Origin: Aliidiomarina sp.
Lineage (GTDB): Bacteria > Pseudomonadota > Gammaproteobacteria > Enterobacterales > Alteromonadaceae
Length of the DNA: 64,000 nucleotides
Assembly: GCF_022565475.1 (NCBI RefSeq)
Contig: NZ_JAIUMR010000001.1
Coordinates: 62,001-126,000, forward strand
Reading direction: 5' to 3'
A program made the position numbers and the translations under genes. Positions 45,155 to 55,929 of the stretch are shown in pieces. Under the pieces are notes generated by a model, which saw only the letters and a program-made list of their open reading frames with translations, ran no database searches and was not told where the DNA came from. Numbering within the stretch: the first letter of the stretch is position 1; every line of letters starts with the position of its first letter.

Positions 45155-45180
45155 GCGCGCACTCACAGGGGTGAGCGCGC
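45155..45180. other. GC-rich hairpin at the convergent gene ends
   Basis: GCGCGC plus CTCAC pairs with GTGAG plus CGCGC around one bulged base. It overlaps the last codons of the DUF3833 gene and lies 9 bases after the stop of the small unknown gene. It has no T-run, so it may pause or protect transcripts from both sides. Confidence 0.4.
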
Positions 45181-45705
45181 GGAATCCATGCGTTCAATAA
45201 ATATGGTGATCTCACCAACGCGAAAGCCAAATTTACGCATTTCAGTCTTATTGATCAAGCGGTGCTCATCAAGCAAGAACATCCAATCGTCTAAAGTAAT
45301 AGCGATGGTGCCATCCCGAAATGGAACTTCAAGCTGATAAACCCAGTGTAAGGCATTGCCCGCTGTTGTTCCTTTTGCCTCGCCGACGACATCACCGGCT
45401 GTGCCCACGTACGTGTTCTCGCCCGTTTTAGTCAAGCGCCAAACACGCGTTTGCTCACGACCATCATCCCAATAGAAAACTTCATCAAGCAGACCTTGAT
45501 TACCGTCCCAAGAGGCTTTTATGTCCGCGCGGAAACGTTGCGTAACCGCACCCGAGCGGTCTTGAACCATACCATAGGCAACCAAGTCGCCAACGAAAAA
45601 CTCATCGAGATGTAACGCGGGTTCTACGCCTTGATAGTCTTGAATTTTACTACTGCAACCGACGAGAAAACCCAGCGCCACTATAACTACAATTAAAATT
45701 TTCAT
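45163..45705 (-). CDS. DUF3833 lipoprotein, last gene of the photo-oxidative stress run
   Basis: 180 residues from ATG 45705 (AGGAG upstream), overlapping the preceding stop as ATGA. It has a lipoprotein signal: ILIVVIVALGFLVGCSSK, with the lipidated Cys at about residue 17. The mature part matches the DUF3833 family as I remember it (HLDEFFVGDLVAYGMVQDR, then FYWDDGREQTRVWRLTKTG and a lipocalin-like beta pattern). No enzyme residues are evident; the calycin-like strand pattern would allow binding of a lipid. The family is repeatedly found with the Cfa-like and CHI-like genes in ECF/ChrR clusters of Vibrio and Shewanella (from memory). Confidence 0.82.
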   Translation of the reverse strand: MKILIVVIVALGFLVGCSSKIQDYQGVEPALHLDEFFVGDLVAYGMVQDRSGAVTQRFRADIKASWDGNQGLLDEVFYWDDGREQTRVWRLTKTGENTYVGTAGDVVGEAKGTTAGNALHWVYQLEVPFRDGTIAITLDDWMFLLDEHRLINKTEMRKFGFRVGEITIFIERMDSARSPL

Positions 45706-46253
45706 CCTCGTTCTCCTACTAATTCGTCTCGGCTGCGGCGGAAGCGTGCGTTTTCGGCAAGCCAAATCGAAAAGAATTTCTCAGCAAACTCAGGTGCGTC
45801 AATTTCACCAAGAGATTTCTCAGCAGAAAAAAACTGCGTTGTGCCGTCTTCAGTACGCGCTGCAATCAAGCAATCACCTGACGACACGTTCGGCCACATT
45901 TTCGCAAGTTGTTCAAGCCACTGTTCTGAGTTTTCATCGAACAAGTCCATACGTTGCCACTCGTCACGGGTTTGATTGACTAACTGCTGAGCAGAGATAT
46001 CCCGCGCATATTCAATGGCCAACACCATCGGTTCCATGCCATTAAACTCTCCGGAACGGGTAAACAAAGCGGCATCATAAATGCGCATAAGTAGAACCCG
46101 CAAACGCGTTTCACCTACCGGCTTGAGCACCGAAGTTGGAGCATGTTCTTGATCCAATAAGGCAGAGTAGCACTGCTGCCCTGCCGTTGCTGAGGCAGAA
46201 CAAGCGAGTACAATGAGCGATACAGCAACAGCAACTTTACGGATATAACGCAT
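45702..46253 (-). CDS. Exported chalcone-isomerase-fold protein
   Basis: 183 residues. A signal peptide (VAVAVSLIVLACSASATA) leads to a chalcone-isomerase-like domain: RLRVLLMRIYDAALFTRSG is the typical second strand/helix pair, followed by LAIEYARDISAQQLVNQTRDEWQRM and FSIWLAEN near the end. Bacterial members of this fold bind fatty acids or haem-like ligands; they lack the plant flavonoid chemistry. The start has GAGAG about seven bases upstream, 12 bases after the DUF2878 stop. It overlaps the DUF3833 start, so the two are made together. Placement in the periplasm beside lipid-modifying genes suggests a role in handling modified or damaged acyl chains. Confidence 0.8.
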   Translation of the reverse strand: MRYIRKVAVAVSLIVLACSASATAGQQCYSALLDQEHAPTSVLKPVGETRLRVLLMRIYDAALFTRSGEFNGMEPMVLAIEYARDISAQQLVNQTRDEWQRMDLFDENSEQWLEQLAKMWPNVSSGDCLIAARTEDGTTQFFSAEKSLGEIDAPEFAEKFFSIWLAENARFRRSRDELVGERG

Positions 46254-46265
46254 AAAAATCTCTCA

Positions 46266-46808
46266 TCAACGTGATGGCTCGTTTACAGCCTTGTTCGCTG
46301 TTGCAGGAATAGCAAACCGGGCAATGATGACCATGATTACGGCCCAAAATATGCTGTAGACCACAACGGCGGTAAAATAAGGAACTAGAATTTCGGCCGC
46401 CCCTAAACGCTCTCCGGCAAAGTAAGTGATTGGACCAAAAATAGCACCGAGAATGGCAGCCACGAGATAACGCCGATGCAAGTAATCGAAAACGATTAAT
46501 GCCATACCGCTGAAGCCTACCCACAGTAAAATCAACCACATCGGAATGAGTGCTGAGCCTTCGTAACGAATCACACCAAAATAAACGGTAGCGAATTCTG
46601 CTAGACAACCGAGTACGACGAGAAAAAATAACGTCTGGCGTTGGCGCCAAAGCAATTTTGGCGTCGCCGCAAACATGCCAAGGATGAGTAGCGCTGTGAC
46701 CCACAACCATTCACCACGACCGAGCACCGCCGCTAACCAAACAAAGTCGAATATGACGAATGCGGCTAACCTGTGGTTACGCAACACGCCCTTGATAAGC
46801 TCGATCAT
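46266..46808 (-). CDS. DUF2878 inner-membrane protein
   Basis: 180 residues from ATG 46808, which overlaps the cfa-like stop as ATGA; no independent Shine-Dalgarno is needed or seen. It is almost entirely hydrophobic, with about five or six membrane helices (AAFVIFDFVWLAAVLG, WLWVTALLILGMFAA, LFFLVVLGCLAEFATVYFG, LIPMWLILLWVGFSGMALIV, AAILGAIFGPITYFAGERLG, LVPYFTAVVVYSIFWAVIMVIIA). The FGPITYFAGERLGA element is the family hallmark. Function is not known. Its fixed position behind the Cfa-like enzyme suggests that it presents or moves the lipid product. Confidence 0.82.
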   Translation of the reverse strand: MIELIKGVLRNHRLAAFVIFDFVWLAAVLGRGEWLWVTALLILGMFAATPKLLWRQRQTLFFLVVLGCLAEFATVYFGVIRYEGSALIPMWLILLWVGFSGMALIVFDYLHRRYLVAAILGAIFGPITYFAGERLGAAEILVPYFTAVVVYSIFWAVIMVIIARFAIPATANKAVNEPSR

Positions 46809-48049
46809 ACGAGCGCTGATTTGCTGGCGCATAACTGAATCGCACTAATTGTTCGCTGCTTAAAGCCACCTTCGCAATAACACAAATAATAGTTCCACAT
46901 GCGCGAGAAACGCTCGTCATACCCCATGGGTTCGAGTTCGTGACGACGGTCATTGAAGCGCTGGCGCCAAGCATTCAGGGTCATGCCATAATCGAGGCCA
47001 ATGTCATTTAACGAGCGCACGACCATGTCCGTGTGCTTGCGATACATGGCGCTAATTAATTCAACCGAAGGTAAATAGCCACCGGGGAATATATACTTTT
47101 GAATAAAATCAACACTCCGGTTGTAGCGCTCTAAACGCTGGTCAGCAATGGTGATTGCTTGCAACACCATGAGCCCACCGGGTTTCAATAGAGCATTACA
47201 CTTTTTAAAGAAGGTGCTCATGTACTCAGCACCAACCGCCTCGATCATTTCCACAGAGACAAGTTTGTCGTACTGGCCGGTTAAATCGCGATAATCTTCT
47301 TGTAAAAGCGTGATCTGGTCTTGTAAGCCTTTCTCCTTGATGAGCTGCTCAGTGTACGCGTACTGCTCTGCCGAAATGGTAGTCGTGGTGACTTTACAGC
47401 CATATCGTTCGGCGGCAAAGATGGCCAAGCCGCCCCAGCCCGTACCGATCTCAACAAGGTGGTCCGTCGGCTGAAGTTGTAATTGATCACACAGACGACG
47501 TAGTTTCTCCTCTTGAGCGTCTTCAAGCGACATTTCTGGCGATACAAAAACTGCACTGGAATATTGCAACCGCGTATCGAGGAAGCGCGTATATAACTCA
47601 TTGCCTAAATCGTAATGGGCTGCAATGTTCTCTTTCGCTCGGGTTTTGCTGTTGCGGCGACGAACGTGCGACAACATATGTAGCGGCCAAGTTAACCAAG
47701 ACAGACGTTTTTCTAACGCATCCAAAACGTTCAGGTTGGCAGCGAAAAATTCAATCACGGACGTCAAATCAGGCGACGTCCAGTGCCCTGCCATGAAGGC
47801 CTCGCCGGCGCCGATATCACCCGAAAAAACCATGGCTTGATAGGTTTTGCCATTCAGTACATTAATTTCTGCACGCGGCCCCGGCAACTGTCCCTGGAAG
47901 TGCGCGACTTCACGATTATTTTCTTTGACGAGAAAGCTACCGCGTTGACTGCGGGATAGTACGGCAAATAAAACGCGTCGAGCGAAGCGCTCTATTTTTG
48001 AAACGGTTTGCATAGAAGTCACAAAAGATTCACTGGTTGATAAAGACAT
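46805..48049 (-). CDS. Cfa-family SAM-dependent fatty-acyl-phospholipid methyltransferase, atypical
   Basis: 414 residues. Family members add a methylene or methyl group from SAM to double bonds of membrane lipids. The SAM site is LVEIGTGWGGLAIFAAERYG (about 198-217); AHYDLGNELYTRFLD, KYIFPGGYLPS and YYLCYCEGGF are conserved. Against E. coli Cfa aligned by eye, the bicarbonate ligands Glu239 and Tyr317 are kept (Glu270, Tyr354), but Cys139 is Ser165 (LQYSSAVF) and His266 is Gln297 (VLQAIT). This base closes the cyclopropane ring in classical Cfa, so a methylated, still unsaturated product is plausible. AAGGAACC precedes the start. I withhold the symbol cfa for this reason. Confidence 0.85.
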   Translation of the reverse strand: MSLSTSESFVTSMQTVSKIERFARRVLFAVLSRSQRGSFLVKENNREVAHFQGQLPGPRAEINVLNGKTYQAMVFSGDIGAGEAFMAGHWTSPDLTSVIEFFAANLNVLDALEKRLSWLTWPLHMLSHVRRRNSKTRAKENIAAHYDLGNELYTRFLDTRLQYSSAVFVSPEMSLEDAQEEKLRRLCDQLQLQPTDHLVEIGTGWGGLAIFAAERYGCKVTTTTISAEQYAYTEQLIKEKGLQDQITLLQEDYRDLTGQYDKLVSVEMIEAVGAEYMSTFFKKCNALLKPGGLMVLQAITIADQRLERYNRSVDFIQKYIFPGGYLPSVELISAMYRKHTDMVVRSLNDIGLDYGMTLNAWRQRFNDRRHELEPMGYDERFSRMWNYYLCYCEGGFKQRTISAIQLCASKSALV

Positions 48050-48093: not shown

Positions 48094-48855
48094 CTACTCA
48101 TTAATGTTGCGGCGCGCATGTCCATAAAATGGCACTCGTTTCAGAGCAAGCCGTAATGCTTGCCAGTAGATTCCCGCCACCGCTTTGACAGTCATCCATG
48201 GCGTTTTGTTGAATACGTAGCGAATATTTGATCGGTTTAGTGGTAAGCGTTTTAAATTCATACTGGCGGTAAAAATTTTTTCTTTACGCCATAACTCAAT
48301 AGTGACGCCAAGCGGTGCGCCCTCCCGCAGTTCCGGCAACCGTAATTGCCAGCGATAGTCCATCTCGATTGGATTAAAGGGCGATACATGAAATGATTTT
48401 TCGTGTTCGAGTGCTTGGTCCAACGCAAGTAAATAGTAATGACGTTCATTCCAGGGTGTATTGCTCACTTCCGCCAACAGGTGCGTGAACGTTCCGTTTT
48501 CATCAGCGAGGTAGTAGCAATTCAGTGGACTAAAATAAATGCCAAAGCAGCGCACATTACCAAGTAAATAGACACGTCCTTGCAGCGGACGTCCAGCCAA
48601 TGCCGACATTTTCGCACGCACTTTATCCGCCAAACGCGGATGGCTTGCGCTCGACTCGTCACGCAGATAATCCGAGCTACGAAACATAAAGGCCGCAAAG
48701 CCGCCATCGATCGACAACAACCGACTTGTTTTACTCGCTGAATCGAGATCATCGAGATCAAACCACCATTGCGACAACCTATAACCGAAACCATGGGTTT
48801 TCGGGGTGAAGCGTTGATGGCCAATCTGACCTAAATAAATTGCATGATTATTCAT
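48094..48855 (-). CDS. DUF1365 protein (COG3496)
   Basis: 253 residues from ATG 48855, overlapping the stop of the flavoprotein gene. DUF1365 opening: AIYLGQIGHQRFTPKTHGFGY, then VYLLGNVRCFGIYFSPLNCYYL, EVSNTPWNERHYYLL and KSFHVSPFNPIEMDYRW, all typical. The family has no proven reaction but always travels with a COG2907 flavoprotein and a Cfa-like methyltransferase, and belongs to the RpoE-ChrR regulon in Rhodobacter. A role in lipid modification, perhaps oxygen insertion or binding of the acyl chain, is inferred from that linkage. His-rich segments (RHYYLL, FHVSPFNP) could bind a metal but this is not shown. Confidence 0.85.
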   Translation of the reverse strand: MNNHAIYLGQIGHQRFTPKTHGFGYRLSQWWFDLDDLDSASKTSRLLSIDGGFAAFMFRSSDYLRDESSASHPRLADKVRAKMSALAGRPLQGRVYLLGNVRCFGIYFSPLNCYYLADENGTFTHLLAEVSNTPWNERHYYLLALDQALEHEKSFHVSPFNPIEMDYRWQLRLPELREGAPLGVTIELWRKEKIFTASMNLKRLPLNRSNIRYVFNKTPWMTVKAVAGIYWQALRLALKRVPFYGHARRNINE

Positions 48856-50149
48856 AATAGGCCGGTTCATCCGCAACGACTTCAATGCCTAGTCGACGAA
48901 CAACATCAACAGCACTACGCACACCGTCTTCATGGAAACCACTGTACCAATAAGCACCGCAGAAATGGGTATGGTTGTGTCCACAAATTTCATGCCGCCG
49001 GGCTCGCGCTTGAAATGACGAGACCGAATACACCGGATGGGCGTACTTAAAGGTGCGCAAGATCTTACTTGGCTCTATCGCGGCAGTATTGTTTAAGGTG
49101 ACACAGAATGTCACCGGAGCCTGTTGAATTCCCTGCAAAATATTCATGTTGTAGGTCACCGTCGCTGGTAACTCAGCACCCTCACGTCCCTGATCCTTCG
49201 GCAGGCGATAATTCCAACTGGCCCATGCCGCTTTACGGCGCGGTAACTGGCCGATATCGGTGTGCAAAACAACCTCATTCTCTTGATACGGAATACCTTG
49301 GAGGATCTCAGTTTCTGCGGGCGTCGCATCAGCAAGTAGTGCGAGTGCTTGATCACTGTGGCAGGCAAAAATAACCTGATCAAACTGCTCCTCGCGCTGA
49401 TCTGCAAAGTGCAAGGTAACGCCGTCAGGATTACGGCTTACAGCGGCCACGTTCGCGTTCAGTATGATTCTCTCCGCGAAAGGAGCCGTCAATGCAGGAA
49501 TATAGCTACGTGAGCCCCCTTTAATGACATGCCATTGTGGTCGATCCTGAATATTTAACAGGCCATGATTTATGAAGAAACGCAGAAAAAACCCGAGAGG
49601 AAACTGACTAGATTCACGCAAACTTGCAGACCATATTGCCGCACACATAGGTAATAAGTAGTTCTGCGAAAAGTCATCACCTAAACCTAACTCGGCAACG
49701 AAATCAGCGAGGGTCAGTGTATCGAGCTCGACTTGACTGCGCTCTGCCAATGCTTGTTTTGCAGCTTTATTAAAGGCAACAATGTCGCTCAGCATTCGAT
49801 AGAAGCGTGGACGGAATAAATTACGTTTTTGCGCAAAGAGAGTGGCAAATGAATGACCATTATATTCGAGTCCCGTGACTGGGTTGGTCACACTAAAACT
49901 CATTTCCGTGTCTTGCCAGTCGACGCCGTTGGCGCGTAGCAAGGTCTTAAAATGCGGGTAAGTCCGGTCATTAAAGACAATAAAACCTGTATCGATGGCA
50001 AATTTCGAGCCCTCTACTTCAACATCTATGGTTGCTGTATGGCCGCCAATATAATCATTTTTTTCAAACATCCATACAGTGTGTTCACGACTGAGCAGAT
50101 GTGCTGCAGTCATCCCGGCGATGCCGGAGCCTATCACGGCTATTTTCAT
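48848..50149 (-). CDS. FAD-dependent amine-oxidase-like flavoprotein (COG2907)
   Basis: 433 residues. The dinucleotide fold starts at once: KIAVIGSGIAGMTAAHLLSREH, then MFEKNDYIGGHTATIDVE, which binds FAD. Further family motifs are FAIDTGFIVFNDRTYPHFKTLL, LPMCAAIWSASL and the C-terminal GAYWYSGFHEDGVRSAVDVVRRLG, where the flavin is closed in. It resembles carotenoid and polyamine oxidases more than true amine oxidases. In ECF/ChrR regulons it sits with the Cfa-like and DUF1365 genes, and related proteins have been tied to fatty-acyl desaturation on the way to furan fatty acids (from memory, not checked). Its end overlaps the DUF1365 start by eight bases. Confidence 0.88.
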   Translation of the reverse strand: MKIAVIGSGIAGMTAAHLLSREHTVWMFEKNDYIGGHTATIDVEVEGSKFAIDTGFIVFNDRTYPHFKTLLRANGVDWQDTEMSFSVTNPVTGLEYNGHSFATLFAQKRNLFRPRFYRMLSDIVAFNKAAKQALAERSQVELDTLTLADFVAELGLGDDFSQNYLLPMCAAIWSASLRESSQFPLGFFLRFFINHGLLNIQDRPQWHVIKGGSRSYIPALTAPFAERIILNANVAAVSRNPDGVTLHFADQREEQFDQVIFACHSDQALALLADATPAETEILQGIPYQENEVVLHTDIGQLPRRKAAWASWNYRLPKDQGREGAELPATVTYNMNILQGIQQAPVTFCVTLNNTAAIEPSKILRTFKYAHPVYSVSSFQARARRHEICGHNHTHFCGAYWYSGFHEDGVRSAVDVVRRLGIEVVADEPAYYE

Positions 50150-50198: not shown

Positions 50199-50936
50199 TC
50201 ATTGATTGCGCATACGCGCAGAAAGAGCGATCTGCCAGCGGTACGGCAAGCGATGGAGCGCTGCTAAAATCAAACCGAAGATACGTGGAAAGGCAATATG
50301 TGGTTTACCTCGCTGCAAACCTTTTTGAATCGCTTCACTCGCTTTGGTGACGGAAATGCGCATAGGCATCTCAAAGTCATTGGCGTCGGTCATCGGTGTT
50401 TCAACAAACCCAGGCGAAATGGTTGTCACCGCAATCCCGTGTGGGCGTAGATCTGAACGTAAACTACCGGCAAAGTAATGCACTGCTGCTTTGCTGGCAC
50501 CATAGGCCTCCGCGCGAGTGAAAGGAATCAGCCGAGCCATACTGTCGACAATCGCTATGCGACTTCCTGCACGCAGTACTTTCACCAGTGCCTCGCAACA
50601 ATACACAACGCCGAAAAAATTCGCGGCAAAAACACGCTCAACCAGTGCTGCATCGAAATTCATCACATCGTCTACGTATTCACAAACGCCCGCATTTAAA
50701 ATCGCCAAATCGATATCAGTAAGGTTTGCCAACGTTTGATGCACCTCTGCTTGCACGGTTACATCGAAAACCAGAGGGCGAAAACGTTCTTGCTCTGCAA
50801 GGTTCAGTGTCGACCGAAATGCGTCGAGTTTTTCTGCGTTACGTCCACAGACATACACCGTATGACCAGCGGCTAAATAGTCGCACGTGAGCTGCTTACC
50901 GATTCCTGAGCTCGCGCCCGTAATTAAAATGTTCAT
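50199..50936 (-). CDS. Short-chain dehydrogenase/reductase
   Basis: 245 residues, classical SDR. Cofactor motif ILITGASSGIGKQL at residue 3, with CGRNAEKLDA favouring NADP(H); the N-A-G motif is LAILNAGVCEY; catalytic Ser lies in RIAIVDSMARL, and Tyr/Lys in AEAYGASKAAVHYF. SPGFVETPMTD follows as usual. The C-terminus has a hydrophobic/basic stretch (RIFGLILAALHRLPYRWQIAL), which may attach it to the membrane. The start overlaps the NTF2-like gene as ATGA. A reductase of this type is standard in ECF/ChrR clusters; the substrate is unknown, possibly a lipid carbonyl formed by photo-oxidation. Confidence 0.88.
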   Translation of the reverse strand: MNILITGASSGIGKQLTCDYLAAGHTVYVCGRNAEKLDAFRSTLNLAEQERFRPLVFDVTVQAEVHQTLANLTDIDLAILNAGVCEYVDDVMNFDAALVERVFAANFFGVVYCCEALVKVLRAGSRIAIVDSMARLIPFTRAEAYGASKAAVHYFAGSLRSDLRPHGIAVTTISPGFVETPMTDANDFEMPMRISVTKASEAIQKGLQRGKPHIAFPRIFGLILAALHRLPYRWQIALSARMRNQ

Positions 50937-51385
50937 GAGCCCTCCATTTTCCTACGCACTTTATTGATGACCCACCCCAACACAGGCACATGCTCATACA
51001 CCATAGCGCCAAGATCGTAATAGTCGACATGCTCTTTAATAAGGTTGGAGTCTTCGGCAAAGCGCAAATGACTCGTGCCCGGCACCTGAATTTCCCGACC
51101 ACCCGCAAGTTTTTCGTGCTGTAACCGCATTTGCCAGACTAAAAAGGCCTGTTCGCGGTCAACCATTTCGGTTTCGATGGCAAATTTACAGTGGATTGCA
51201 TTCGCTAAACCATGGTCCAAATAATGCAAAAGGTTATCTCGCCCTTGCACTAACTGCACTGGATCTTTGAACGTTAAATCCTCGATGTAAATTTGGTCAA
51301 GTGTAGTCAGGTTGCTTTCGCCTAGATCACTATAGAAGTCACGAAAGCGAGTTATTAATTCACGTCGTTCAGCGGTTTTAATCAT
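50933..51385 (-). CDS. NTF2/SnoaL-like small protein
   Basis: 150 residues. The pattern fits an NTF2-like alpha+beta cone: an N-terminal helix (ERRELITRFRDFYSDLG), YIEDLTFKDPVQLVQGRDNLLHYLDHGL, then alternating strands (CKFAIETEMVDREQAFLVWQMRL, HLRFAEDSNLIKEHVDYYDLGAMVYEHVP). The DPVQLVQG-type loop and the VDYYD turn are common in bacterial SnoaL-like proteins, some of which are isomerases or binding proteins. No clear catalytic pair can be claimed. AGAGGGAT precedes the start. It is translationally coupled to the SDR, which suggests that the two act together. Confidence 0.78.
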   Translation of the reverse strand: MIKTAERRELITRFRDFYSDLGESNLTTLDQIYIEDLTFKDPVQLVQGRDNLLHYLDHGLANAIHCKFAIETEMVDREQAFLVWQMRLQHEKLAGGREIQVPGTSHLRFAEDSNLIKEHVDYYDLGAMVYEHVPVLGWVINKVRRKMEGS

Positions 51386-51411: not shown

Positions 51412-52845
51412 TTAACCTTTCGCTGCTTTAAACATAGCAATAAATTGTTCGCGACGTTCACTATGATCGACGATCGGCTGCGGATAGGGACTTTCATCAC
51501 CATAGGTGGCTCGTAGATAACTTGCAGGTTCATGAATGTATTTTGTCGGGACCGGTTCTAATTCCTTGATCCACTTACGAATGTATTCACCATCAGGATC
51601 AAATTTCTCACTTTGTCGAGCGGGATTAAATACACGAAAATACGGCGCTGCATCGGTTCCTGTTCCCGCACTCCACTGCCAGCCGCCGTTATTAGCGGGA
51701 AAACTCCCATCGATCAAACGTTGCATAAAATAACGCTCACCCCAACGCCAATCGATATGTAAGTCTTTCACTAAAAAGCTAGCTACAATCATTCTGACCC
51801 GATTATGCATCCAGCCAGTCGCATTTAATTGCCGCATGCCGGCGTCAACAATCGGAAACCCGGTCGTTCCCTCACACCATGCTTTGAATTCACGGGCATT
51901 GTTCCGCCACTTAATCGCGTCCGTTTCAGCGACAAAACTTTCGCCGCGACTGAGGCGCGGTTCATGAAACATGAGGTGTTGATAAAACTCACGCCAAGCA
52001 ATCTCTGACAACCAGGTATGCATCCCTTGATTAAGTCCGTGAGGGAACTCAGGGCTATGTTTTTGCAGCAGATGCAAAACGACCCGTGGTGATATCACGC
52101 CAATTTCAAAGTACGCTGAGAGGATTGACGTGCCATCAATTGCCGGTCGATCGCGATCGGACTTGTAGGCACTCACCCGCTCACGAACAAAGGCTTGCGT
52201 TTGCCGGCGAATATCAGACTCGGAAACCGACCATCCTTCGCTCGTCAAAACAGGTACTGCATCCTGCAATGGTTGTTCTCTGCTAACTCGATGCTCAACG
52301 TTGCTGCTCTTTAACAGCGCGTCGCGTGTGTATGGCGGCGATACCTCATTCTCTGCTAAACGCTTTAGCCAGGCTTTAAAAAACGGCGTGAATACGCGAT
52401 AGTATTCGCCTTTACCGTTTTTGATCTGCTCAGGTGCAACACAGAGATTGCTGTCGCATTGAACGACGTCGATGCCTGCAGCCCGCAATCGCGCATCGAC
52501 AGCCGCATCACGATTAAGTTCATCGAGCGGATAATCACGGTTCCAAAAGACCCTATCAAGTTTCTGAGTATGGCAAAACTGACTGATAAGCTCTGGCACT
52601 TGCGCATAGTCATCTGTGCTAAACACGGTCAATTCAATGCCTAAGCTAGCTAAATCGTCGGCTAAGGCGCACAGGCGGCGCTCATATAGATCCCACTTAA
52701 TTGCCGACCAATCATGCTGTAGCCATTGTTTGGGCGTACGTACAACGATTGCTTTAACCGTTTGATGACGTTCGCAAGCAAGCCTGAGCGCATCATTATC
52801 CAATAACCGCAAGTCGTTACGAAACCAAACGAGTGCATTGCCCAT
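51412..52845 (-). CDS. phrB: Deoxyribodipyrimidine photolyase (class I CPD)
   Basis: 477 residues from ATG 52845 (GAGGAAGG upstream; GTG 52851 lies on the Shine-Dalgarno). Photolyase uses blue light and reduced FAD to split cyclobutane pyrimidine dimers. The N-terminal antenna domain begins NALVWFRNDLRLLDNDAL. The FAD domain has EIAWREFYQHLMF, WCEGTTGFPIVDAGMRQL, NATGWMHNRVRMIVASFL, VKDLHIDWRWGERYF and NNGGWQWSAGTGTDAAPYFR with conserved electron-transfer tryptophans, and IFNP-like VFNPARQSEKFDPDGEYIRKW. It strongly resembles E. coli PhrB. It follows the ybgA-like gene, as in E. coli, and heads the lipid-modification genes. Confidence 0.96.
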   Translation of the reverse strand: MGNALVWFRNDLRLLDNDALRLACERHQTVKAIVVRTPKQWLQHDWSAIKWDLYERRLCALADDLASLGIELTVFSTDDYAQVPELISQFCHTQKLDRVFWNRDYPLDELNRDAAVDARLRAAGIDVVQCDSNLCVAPEQIKNGKGEYYRVFTPFFKAWLKRLAENEVSPPYTRDALLKSSNVEHRVSREQPLQDAVPVLTSEGWSVSESDIRRQTQAFVRERVSAYKSDRDRPAIDGTSILSAYFEIGVISPRVVLHLLQKHSPEFPHGLNQGMHTWLSEIAWREFYQHLMFHEPRLSRGESFVAETDAIKWRNNAREFKAWCEGTTGFPIVDAGMRQLNATGWMHNRVRMIVASFLVKDLHIDWRWGERYFMQRLIDGSFPANNGGWQWSAGTGTDAAPYFRVFNPARQSEKFDPDGEYIRKWIKELEPVPTKYIHEPASYLRATYGDESPYPQPIVDHSERREQFIAMFKAAKG

Positions 52846-52876
52846 GTTCACCTTCCTCTTTAATTATCAGCCCCTT

Positions 52877-54570: not shown

Positions 54571-54597
54571 TCTTTTTCAGAGTGCATTGCGTTATCT
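54568..54597 (+). promoter_or_regulatory. Candidate autoregulatory ECF11-type promoter of the sigma-chrR operon
   Basis: TGATCT (54568-54573, overlapping the stop of the LON gene), 18-base spacer, TTATCT (54592-54597). The predicted start near 54605 gives a leader of about 35 bases. Same layout as the candidate at 53855. Confidence 0.4.
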
Positions 54598-54638
54598 CAT
54601 TAAGTAAGTTTGGAGCGGGTTCAATAAAGGCGTACACT

Positions 54639-55274
54639 ATGATGCAGGTCATGCCAGAAAAGCGGGTCAATCGACACCACATGAAATCGAACAGCGCAAG
54701 TCCGCAAGAGATCACTCCCGAGTATCTCGCCGGTTTACTCGGCGAGGTCGCTTTGTCTCGTTCTCGGCGAGCATTCTCCGAATTATTTAAACATTTCGCA
54801 CCGAGGTTGCAGAGTTTTGCGACGCGCCAGTTTGGCAACGAGCAGACCGCAATGGATTTGGTGCAAGAGACAATGACCAACGTCTGGCACAAAGCGCATT
54901 TATTTAGCCCAGACAAAGGTTCGCCAACAACTTGGATTTTTACCATTGCGCGGAACATTCGGTTCGATATTTTACGAAAGAACAAAAAGAATCAAAATGA
55001 CATTAGCGCTGACGAACTCTGGCCTGTACTGTCGGAGGAAATGTCTGATAGCGATGATGAGTTCGCAATTGATCAGACCATTTTGCTGCAAGAAATCACC
55101 AGCTACTACAGTCAACTTCCAGACGCTCAGCGCGTGGTCATTGAACATATTTACATCGAAGGAAAATCGCAACAAGAGGTTTCCGACGAGTTAGGTATAC
55201 CATTGGGTACGGTTAAATCTCGCACCCGCTTGGCGTTACAAAAACTAAGAGAGCTGATAACTGATCATGATTAA
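54639..55274 (+). CDS. ECF sigma factor, RpoE/ECF11 type, partner of ChrR
   Basis: 211 residues from ATG 54639 (AAAGGCG upstream). Region 2 is seen in FSELFKHFAPRLQSFATRQFG, MDLVQETMTNVWHKAHLFSP and SPTTWIFTIARNIRFDILRK; region 4 in LPDAQRVVIEHIYIEGKSQQEVSDELGIPLGTVKSRTRLALQKLR. The linker is acidic (EEMSDSDDEFAID). Together with the next gene it forms the group-11 pair known from Rhodobacter sphaeroides, where singlet oxygen releases the sigma factor from ChrR. The stop codon lies inside the chrR start (ATGATTAA), so the two are co-translated. Not to be confused with the envelope-stress RpoE-RseA system. Confidence 0.93.
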   Translation: MMQVMPEKRVNRHHMKSNSASPQEITPEYLAGLLGEVALSRSRRAFSELFKHFAPRLQSFATRQFGNEQTAMDLVQETMTNVWHKAHLFSPDKGSPTTWIFTIARNIRFDILRKNKKNQNDISADELWPVLSEEMSDSDDEFAIDQTILLQEITSYYSQLPDAQRVVIEHIYIEGKSQQEVSDELGIPLGTVKSRTRLALQKLRELITDHD

Positions 55275-55929
55275 ATTCCATCCAAACGAAGAACTGCTTG
55301 TGCAGTACGTCCAGGGAAATCTCGACAGCGCCCTCGCCGTTGTGGTTGGGACTCATATAGACATGTGTCAGCACTGCGCACAACAGAAGAAAGACATTGA
55401 AGACCATCTTTCAGCCAAGGCGTTCGGCGCCGCGACCGACTTTAATGAGTTGTCGATGCAGACGATGCTCGACGAAATCATGAATTCATCGGCACCAGCG
55501 ATCGAGGTACCGCATAAGGTCAATAAACACGTTGTGGTTGAAGGCAAGCAATTTCGTCTGCCGCCATCATTGGCTCGTGTTTCAAAGCGACTTGGTGAGT
55601 GGAGTAAGGTTCCCGGTTCGGTTTGGCGTGCACCGTTGCAGATCGATAACGACAGCGCGATTAACTTAATCTATATGGGTGCCGGTGCGTCGGTTCCTGA
55701 GCATACGCATCGTAGTCAGGAAGCGACGCTAGTGCTAAATGGTACCTTTATTGATGAGCATGACCGTTACCATGATGGCGACTTCGTGTTTCTGAACGCA
55801 GATCATCGTCATTCACCACAAACCGCAGAAGAGGACTGCCTGACGTTGGCTTGGCTCGACGCCCCACTGCAGTTCACGTCGGGCATGGCACGCTTGTTGA
55901 ATCCGTTTAGCAGTCTGTTTTTTAAGTAG
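55267..55929 (+). CDS. chrR: Zinc-binding anti-sigma factor ChrR
   Basis: 220 residues, two zinc domains. The N-terminal anti-sigma domain has His5, His30, Cys34 and Cys37 (the HxxxCxxC zinc motif in THIDMCQHCAQQ), matching His6/His31/Cys35/Cys38 of R. sphaeroides ChrR. The C-terminal cupin has His146, His148, Glu152 and His182 (PEHTHRSQEATLVLNGTF and ADHRHSP), each exactly five residues beyond the R. sphaeroides ligands as I remember them. ChrR holds its sigma factor inactive in the cytoplasm; singlet oxygen or related signals sensed through the cupin cause release and proteolysis. A strong terminator ends the operon. Confidence 0.94.
   Translation: MIKFHPNEELLVQYVQGNLDSALAVVVGTHIDMCQHCAQQKKDIEDHLSAKAFGAATDFNELSMQTMLDEIMNSSAPAIEVPHKVNKHVVVEGKQFRLPPSLARVSKRLGEWSKVPGSVWRAPLQIDNDSAINLIYMGAGASVPEHTHRSQEATLVLNGTFIDEHDRYHDGDFVFLNADHRHSPQTAEEDCLTLAWLDAPLQFTSGMARLLNPFSSLFFK

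Follow-up and report, generated by a model that had tools for sequence, protein, structure and literature searches.

Genes of the photolyase-to-methyltransferase operon

The gene at the centre of this analysis belongs to a 64,000-nucleotide stretch of an Aliidiomarina sp. genome, hereafter the window, and encodes a 414-residue protein of the cyclopropane synthase (CMAS) family. The genes of its surroundings are the following:

45163..45765, minus strand: DUF3833 protein (PF12915, 221.1 bits)
45702..46253, minus strand: chalcone-isomerase-like protein, downstream of ufaM (Pfam, 26.4 bits, slightly under the 27-bit cut-off)
46266..46832, minus strand: DUF2878 protein, downstream of ufaM (PF11086, 103.5 bits)
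46805..48049, minus strand: ufaM homologue, SAM-dependent fatty-acyl methyltransferase, CMAS family, 414 aa (Pfam CMAS, 288 bits; UfaM clade with support 100/97)
48094..48885, minus strand: ufaO homologue, DUF1365 (PF07103, 242.3 bits)
48848..50149, minus strand: ufaD homologue, flavin amine-oxidase family (PF01593, 78.5 bits)
50199..50936, minus strand: short-chain dehydrogenase (PF00106, 136.8 bits; same position in several related loci)
50933..51385, minus strand: SnoaL-like protein (PF12680, 52.6 bits; locus comparison)
51412..52851, minus strand: DNA photolyase (PF03441, 286.4 bits; locus comparison)
54582..55274, plus strand: ECF sigma factor adjoining ChrR, start codon uncertain (NF008890, 293.8 bits, cut-off 284)
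55267..55929, plus strand: ChrR anti-sigma factor (TIGR02451, 180.3 bits, cut-off 124.5)

The operon thus runs from the photolyase through the SnoaL-like protein, the short-chain dehydrogenase, the flavoprotein and the DUF1365 protein to the methyltransferase, with rpoE-chrR close by. It matches a known singlet-oxygen regulon, and its final three genes are the counterparts of ufaD, ufaO and ufaM. The initial annotation had read the flavoprotein and DUF1365 neighbours as fitting a furan-fatty-acid pathway, and this is borne out by their homology to ufaD and ufaO. At the level of promoters, TGATCC, the hexamer of the R. sphaeroides sigma-factor promoter, occurs in the window at chance level (26 observed against 24.1 expected; 3 against 2.0 for its spaced form), and a search of the window found no exact copy ahead of either the operon or rpoE. 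Three genes follow ufaM (45163-46832; DUF2878, chalcone-isomerase-like and DUF3833). The DUF3833 family is also represented, by a 187-residue protein, at the RSP1088 position of a Rhodobacter-type operon in our sample (L036), and deletion of RSP1088 left the fatty acid profile unaltered (PMC7380195).

The pathway to which these genes point was published in 2020, so the inference of a furan pathway is not new. In R. sphaeroides, cis-vaccenate is converted by UfaM (RSP_2144) to 11Me-12t-18:1, from which the NAD/FAD-domain protein UfaD forms the diene, and the DUF1365 protein UfaO then adds oxygen from O2; in R. palustris, RPA2569-2571 are enough for the pathway (PMC7380195). The Halomonas ufaM, consecutive with ufaD and ufaO, yields 11-methyloctadec-12-enoate in E. 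coli (PMC12089945). The three genes lie side by side in the window, in Halomonas and in R. palustris, whereas ufaM is far from ufaD/ufaO in R. sphaeroides (PMC12089945). The same set of genes, from phrB to cfa, forms one locus in P. syringae (PSPTO_1121-1116), with counterparts of RSP_1091, RSP_1090 and RSP_2144 and with upstream binding of the ECF sigma factor of a ChrR pair detected by ChIP-Seq; rpoE-chrR, close by in the window, occupies a separate locus there (PMC5507510). PSPTO_1116 is 39% identical to RSP_2144 and is annotated as a cyclopropane synthase (PMC5507510), a label that genes of this kind can evidently acquire. The blue-light-induced VC1122 of Vibrio cholerae has been discussed as a cyclopropane synthase (PMC5241685); judging from its ChrR context, this protein may be a UfaM.

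Residues at the bicarbonate site

Pfam and the comparison of its AlphaFold model identify the window protein as a CMAS-family SAM methyltransferase with the fold of Cfa. The model (mean pLDDT 89.5) matches the E. coli Cfa chain 6bqc with a Z score of 40.4 and an rmsd of 2.2 over 342 residues at 35% identity, a comparison of ranges and not of residue pairs. The protein scores under the NCBIfam cut-offs of the canonical Cfa models (290.6 of 400 bits for PRK11705 and 288.2 of 600 bits for CPFASynBruc). Chain 6bqc, in which the printed numbering equals the literature numbering plus one, served as the reference for residues as well. Aligned with E. coli Cfa by phmmer, the protein shows no gaps around the sites, and the alignment pairs YSC with YSS (Cys139 with Ser165), GMFEHVG with EMIEAVG (Glu239 with Glu270), LLHT with VLQA (His266 with Gln297) and Tyr317 with Tyr354. 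The codons concerned, placed by alignment and read from the window, are:

47555..47557, minus strand: Ser165 (E. coli Cys139)
47249..47251, minus strand: Glu267 (E. coli Gly236), an additional carboxylate beside the site
47240..47242, minus strand: Glu270 (E. coli Glu239), ligand retained
47237..47239, minus strand: Ala271 (E. coli His240)
47159..47161, minus strand: Gln297 (E. coli His266)
46988..46990, minus strand: Tyr354 (E. coli Tyr317), ligand retained

The canonical set Cys139/Glu239/His266/Tyr317 is therefore not matched by the window protein, which reads Ser/Glu/Gln/Tyr. The initial annotation had described precisely these two replacements, with Glu270 and Tyr354 kept, and phmmer, the codons and a MAFFT alignment of many relatives agree on them; the last gives the same correspondences and does not bring the Cys and His ligands back. 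Two further changes near the site had escaped the initial annotation, namely Glu267 in place of Gly236 and Ala271 in place of His240. Compared with E. coli Cfa, the window protein is thus alike in fold and at Glu239 and Tyr317, and differs at Cys139, Gly236, His240 and His266 as well as in its expected product.

The description of these changes as the loss of two bicarbonate ligands is overstated. The side chains that contact bicarbonate in E. coli Cfa are those of Glu239, His266 and Tyr317 (PMC11387697), and two of the five bicarbonate contacts in a mycobacterial structure are made by backbone amides (PMC3132707). In our reading, Cys139 is probably one of these two backbone contacts, so that the exchange of His266 for Gln would be the only change among the side-chain ligands.

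The UfaM clade and its gene neighbourhoods

The distribution of these residues was followed through 120 genomes of the phylum, that of the window included. A DUF1365 protein (E<=0.001) is encoded in 32 of them, all of which also encode a methyltransferase like that of the window (E<=1e-70); the methyltransferase occurs without DUF1365 in 3 genomes, and the remaining 85 have neither. Both the residue count and the tree were built on 73 rows, comprising 65 CMAS matches (E<=1e-30) from the 32 genomes, 3 from the genomes lacking DUF1365 and 5 solved chains; ten duplicate loci were excluded from the residue count. In the maximum-likelihood tree, the window protein falls within a clade of 37 rows with support 100/97, apart from the Cfa side. 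The clade groups the window protein with UfaM-type proteins of ufaD/ufaO genomes, among them those located at a distance from ufaO in Rhodobacteraceae-like genomes. The Cfa side is made of 29 rows (27 canonical ones, MmaA4 and L074) held together by a weak branch (90/60).

The two groups differ at the bicarbonate site. All 37 clade rows have Ser, Ala or Gly at position 139, Glu at 236 and Gln at 266, and 36 have Ala at 240, the exception being L038 with Arg; on the Cfa side, 27 of the 29 rows have Cys, Gly, His and His at the same positions. Over positions 139/236/239/240/266/268/317, 36 rows read S/A/G-E-E-A-Q-I-Y, which together with L038 constitute the UfaM clade, and 27 read C-G-E-H-H-I-Y, one of these being the second CMAS protein of the window genome (L001), a canonical Cfa. 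The other 10 rows are MmaA4 (C-E-E-H-Q), L074 (S-E-E-H-Q), L038 (A-E-E-R-Q) and seven rows of a distant, N-methyltransferase-like group, all seven with Glu at 236 and with both histidines (240 and 266), and 4 of them with Ser or Ala at 139. Among the rows examined, UfaM-type proteins are told apart from canonical Cfa by positions 139/236/240/266, where the former read S/A/G, E, A and Q and the latter C, G, H and H. The changes described by the initial annotation are not peculiar to this gene and are common to the whole clade examined. The signature was also present in all of the best 80 of 592 relatives (76 with Ser, 3 with Ala and 1 with Gly at 139) retrieved as named homologues in one scan of genome contigs with a Rhodobacteraceae-like UfaM query, a uniformity that is partly due to selection because these rows were chosen as the most UfaM-like. 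Nearly all of the 80 are titled Alphaproteobacteria, and neither Rhodobacter sphaeroides nor Halomonas is among them. As for L074, it is a Cfa-side protein near the MmaA4 pattern (Ser, Glu, His and Gln at 139, 236, 240 and 266), in which positions 268 and 317 are occupied by Ser and Phe, from a genome that also has a UfaM.

The flavoprotein adjoins DUF1365 in 32/32 sampled loci, a UfaM-clade protein lies in the same locus in 27/32, and chrR is found within the fetched stretch in 14/32, window included. In R. pseudopalustris (L124), a member of the genus of the tested R. palustris that served as comparator in place of R. sphaeroides and Halomonas, flavoprotein, DUF1365 protein and methyltransferase are consecutive and the methyltransferase has the same residue signature. 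The locus L036, of the same phylum as the window and another class, shows the order flavoprotein, DUF1365, MFS, DUF3833, short-chain dehydrogenase and divergent chrR, which is the layout of the published RSP1091-1087 operon, with protein lengths close to those published for RSP1090 to RSP1087; it is Rhodobacteraceae-like, to judge from the UfaM of its genome, which shares 83% identity with a Sulfitobacter protein, and the difference in class by itself makes the window probably gammaproteobacterial. The flavoprotein of L036 and the UfaD homologue of the window match with 287 bits. In two Rhodobacteraceae-like genomes (L037, L038), a second, diverged UfaM-clade protein adjoins ufaO and another UfaM lies elsewhere.

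With the known UfaM proteins RSP2144 (R. sphaeroides), RPA2569 (R. palustris) and YLGW01_00254 (Halomonas), the window protein has in common its family, a clade that includes Rhodobacteraceae-type members, ufaD/ufaO homologues and the link to ChrR-RpoE. In all likelihood, therefore, it is a UfaM, a fatty-acyl methyltransferase acting on membrane phospholipids in the first step towards the protective furan fatty acids, within an operon of the RpoE-ChrR singlet-oxygen response. This identification combines the family, clade, operon and residue signature found here with the products of UfaM, UfaD and UfaO that have been demonstrated in print for relatives. Several observations count against it. 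The window protein sits in a half of the clade composed mostly of its own class, the Rhodobacteraceae-type UfaM members being in the other half, and it is 35-41% identical to the aligned clade members of alphaproteobacterial type. In 5 of the 32 loci no UfaM-clade protein accompanies ufaO, all five genomes having one elsewhere. Moreover, cyclic fatty acids were reported for Halomonas strains overexpressing ufaM and cfa alike (PMC12089945). The hexamer search of the window brought up no sigma-factor promoter. With regard to gene separation, homologues of both flavoprotein and DUF1365 were found in 22 of the loci of the best 80 of 592 relatives, a further locus had only DUF1365 and the other 57 had neither, with flanks that were often short; Rhodobacteraceae may keep ufaM apart from these genes. 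Taken as a whole, the window protein is very probably an ordinary member of the UfaM family, encoded in a singlet-oxygen operon that is ordinary too, which places the furan-fatty-acid operon in one more bacterium.

Ring closure and the candidate base

The initial annotation had proposed that the enzyme stops at a methylated, still unsaturated chain, the first intermediate of furan fatty acids. This conclusion is backed by the UfaM clade, the ufaD/ufaO operon and the Halomonas ufaM, and it is very probably right and already in print for relatives; the residue argument that had led to it does not stand. That argument was that the two replacements abolish bicarbonate binding and hence ring closure. 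In agreement with such a mechanism, position 266 is Gln in 37/37 UfaM-clade rows against His in 27/29 rows of the Cfa side, where one exception with Gln is the hydroxymycolate synthase MmaA4. Other enzymes speak against it. MmaA1, which makes methyl-branched trans-mycolates, keeps Cys139 and His266 in the alignment, where its residues at 236, 239 and 240 are Glu, Asp and Ala. UmaA likewise keeps Cys, Gly236 and His, with Ala at 240, and UmaA1 has been credited with forming a vicinal methyl alongside a trans double bond (PMC8708032). The E. coli Cfa variant C139S retains 31% of catalytic efficiency (PMC3132707). The cotton enzyme GhCPS1, with Ser602 in the place of Cys139 and Gln737 in that of His266, produces cyclopropane fatty acids when expressed in yeast, in tobacco cells or in Arabidopsis seed (PMC3132707), while the bfa methylases, chosen for their conserved bicarbonate site, give a 10-methylene product without a ring (PMC7791843). 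The ligand argument thus fails both ways, and the explanation through two residues is unlikely. Taken together, these cases indicate that the residues at 139 and 266 neither forbid nor ensure ring closure; the bicarbonate residues alone are no predictor of it, which sharpens the question of what is. A literature search, with most subscription journals outside its scope, retrieved no paper that deals with these residues in UfaM itself, and the word bicarbonate was absent from the UfaM papers searched.

The example of GhCPS1 also raises the possibility that the window protein is a plant-type cyclopropane synthase after all, in which Ser and Gln at positions 139 and 266 go together with ring closure. 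Like the window proteins, GhCPS1 combines a flavoprotein and a UfaM-like part, fused into one chain in the cotton enzyme and in Arabidopsis AT3G23510 and encoded by separate genes in the window. The DUF1365 (UfaO) neighbour and rpoE-chrR speak against this reading, as does the canonical Cfa already present in the window genome. In addition, Rhodobacter-type and Halomonas UfaM give a methyl-branched monoene (PMC7380195, PMC12089945), and an Agrobacterium homologue yielded no cyclopropanes in yeast (PMC3132707). A plant-type synthase is accordingly very improbable here. The pairing of a Cfa homologue with an FAD protein is likewise a feature of the bfa/tmp operons (PMC7791843), whose enzymes would suggest that the methyltransferase and the flavoprotein produce 10-methylene chains first and 10-methyl branched ones from these. 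Such an activity in the window is hardly to be expected, given the DUF1365 and rpoE-chrR context and an altered site that, compared by description, differs from the conserved site of the bfa genes (PMC7791843).

Reading the window protein as a UfaM, we would expect the same product in Aliidiomarina as in relatives, by a cation route that calls for a proton-accepting group. SAM would methylate one carbon of a cis double bond (that of cis-vaccenate in the studied cases), and the cation at the neighbouring carbon would lose a proton from the chain and not from the new methyl group, so that the chain ends up methyl-branched and trans-unsaturated, with no ring; the predicted product from cis-vaccenate is 11-methyl-12-trans-18:1. 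UfaD (48848-50149) would then desaturate the methyl-branched product to the diene, and UfaO (48094-48885) would insert oxygen from O2 to close the furan.

A tentative candidate for the base, in place of bound bicarbonate, is the carboxylate of Glu267, located where E. coli Cfa has Gly236; we consider this possible rather than probable. A built-in carboxylate closer to the chain might take the allylic proton and not the methyl proton, giving the branched trans-alkene. Glu occupies position 236 in 37/37 UfaM-clade rows, MmaA4 and MmaA1, while Gly does so in 27/29 Cfa-side rows, and also in CmaA1, MmaA2 and PcaA among the solved chains. The window protein shares Glu at 236 with both MmaA4 and MmaA1, along with Gln at 266 in the case of MmaA4 and Ala at 240 in that of MmaA1; both act on mycolic acid chains, MmaA4 keeping Cys139 and MmaA1 keeping Cys139 and His266 with Asp at 239. 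In crystal structures of MmaA4, a water molecule is held by Glu146, Glu149 and Ser178 (PMC8708032). Matched through the alignment, Glu146 is E. coli position 236. Against a catalytic role of Glu267 stands the Gly of UmaA at this position, and Glu is not special to UfaM, since it is shared by the distant N-methyltransferase-like group in 7/7 rows. It is also carried by plant cyclopropane synthases, which would weaken the idea.

Beyond the window, 5 of 31 related loci (L009, L010, L011, L018 and L033) encode a distant CMAS-family protein within their ufaD/ufaO region, and 2 more genomes (L075, L076) encode it elsewhere; used as a query, it found only UfaM and Cfa in the window genome. The best match of the L018 copy among solved chains is coclaurine N-methyltransferase, and the protein of these five loci may be a FufM-type second methylase of dimethyl-furan fatty acids.
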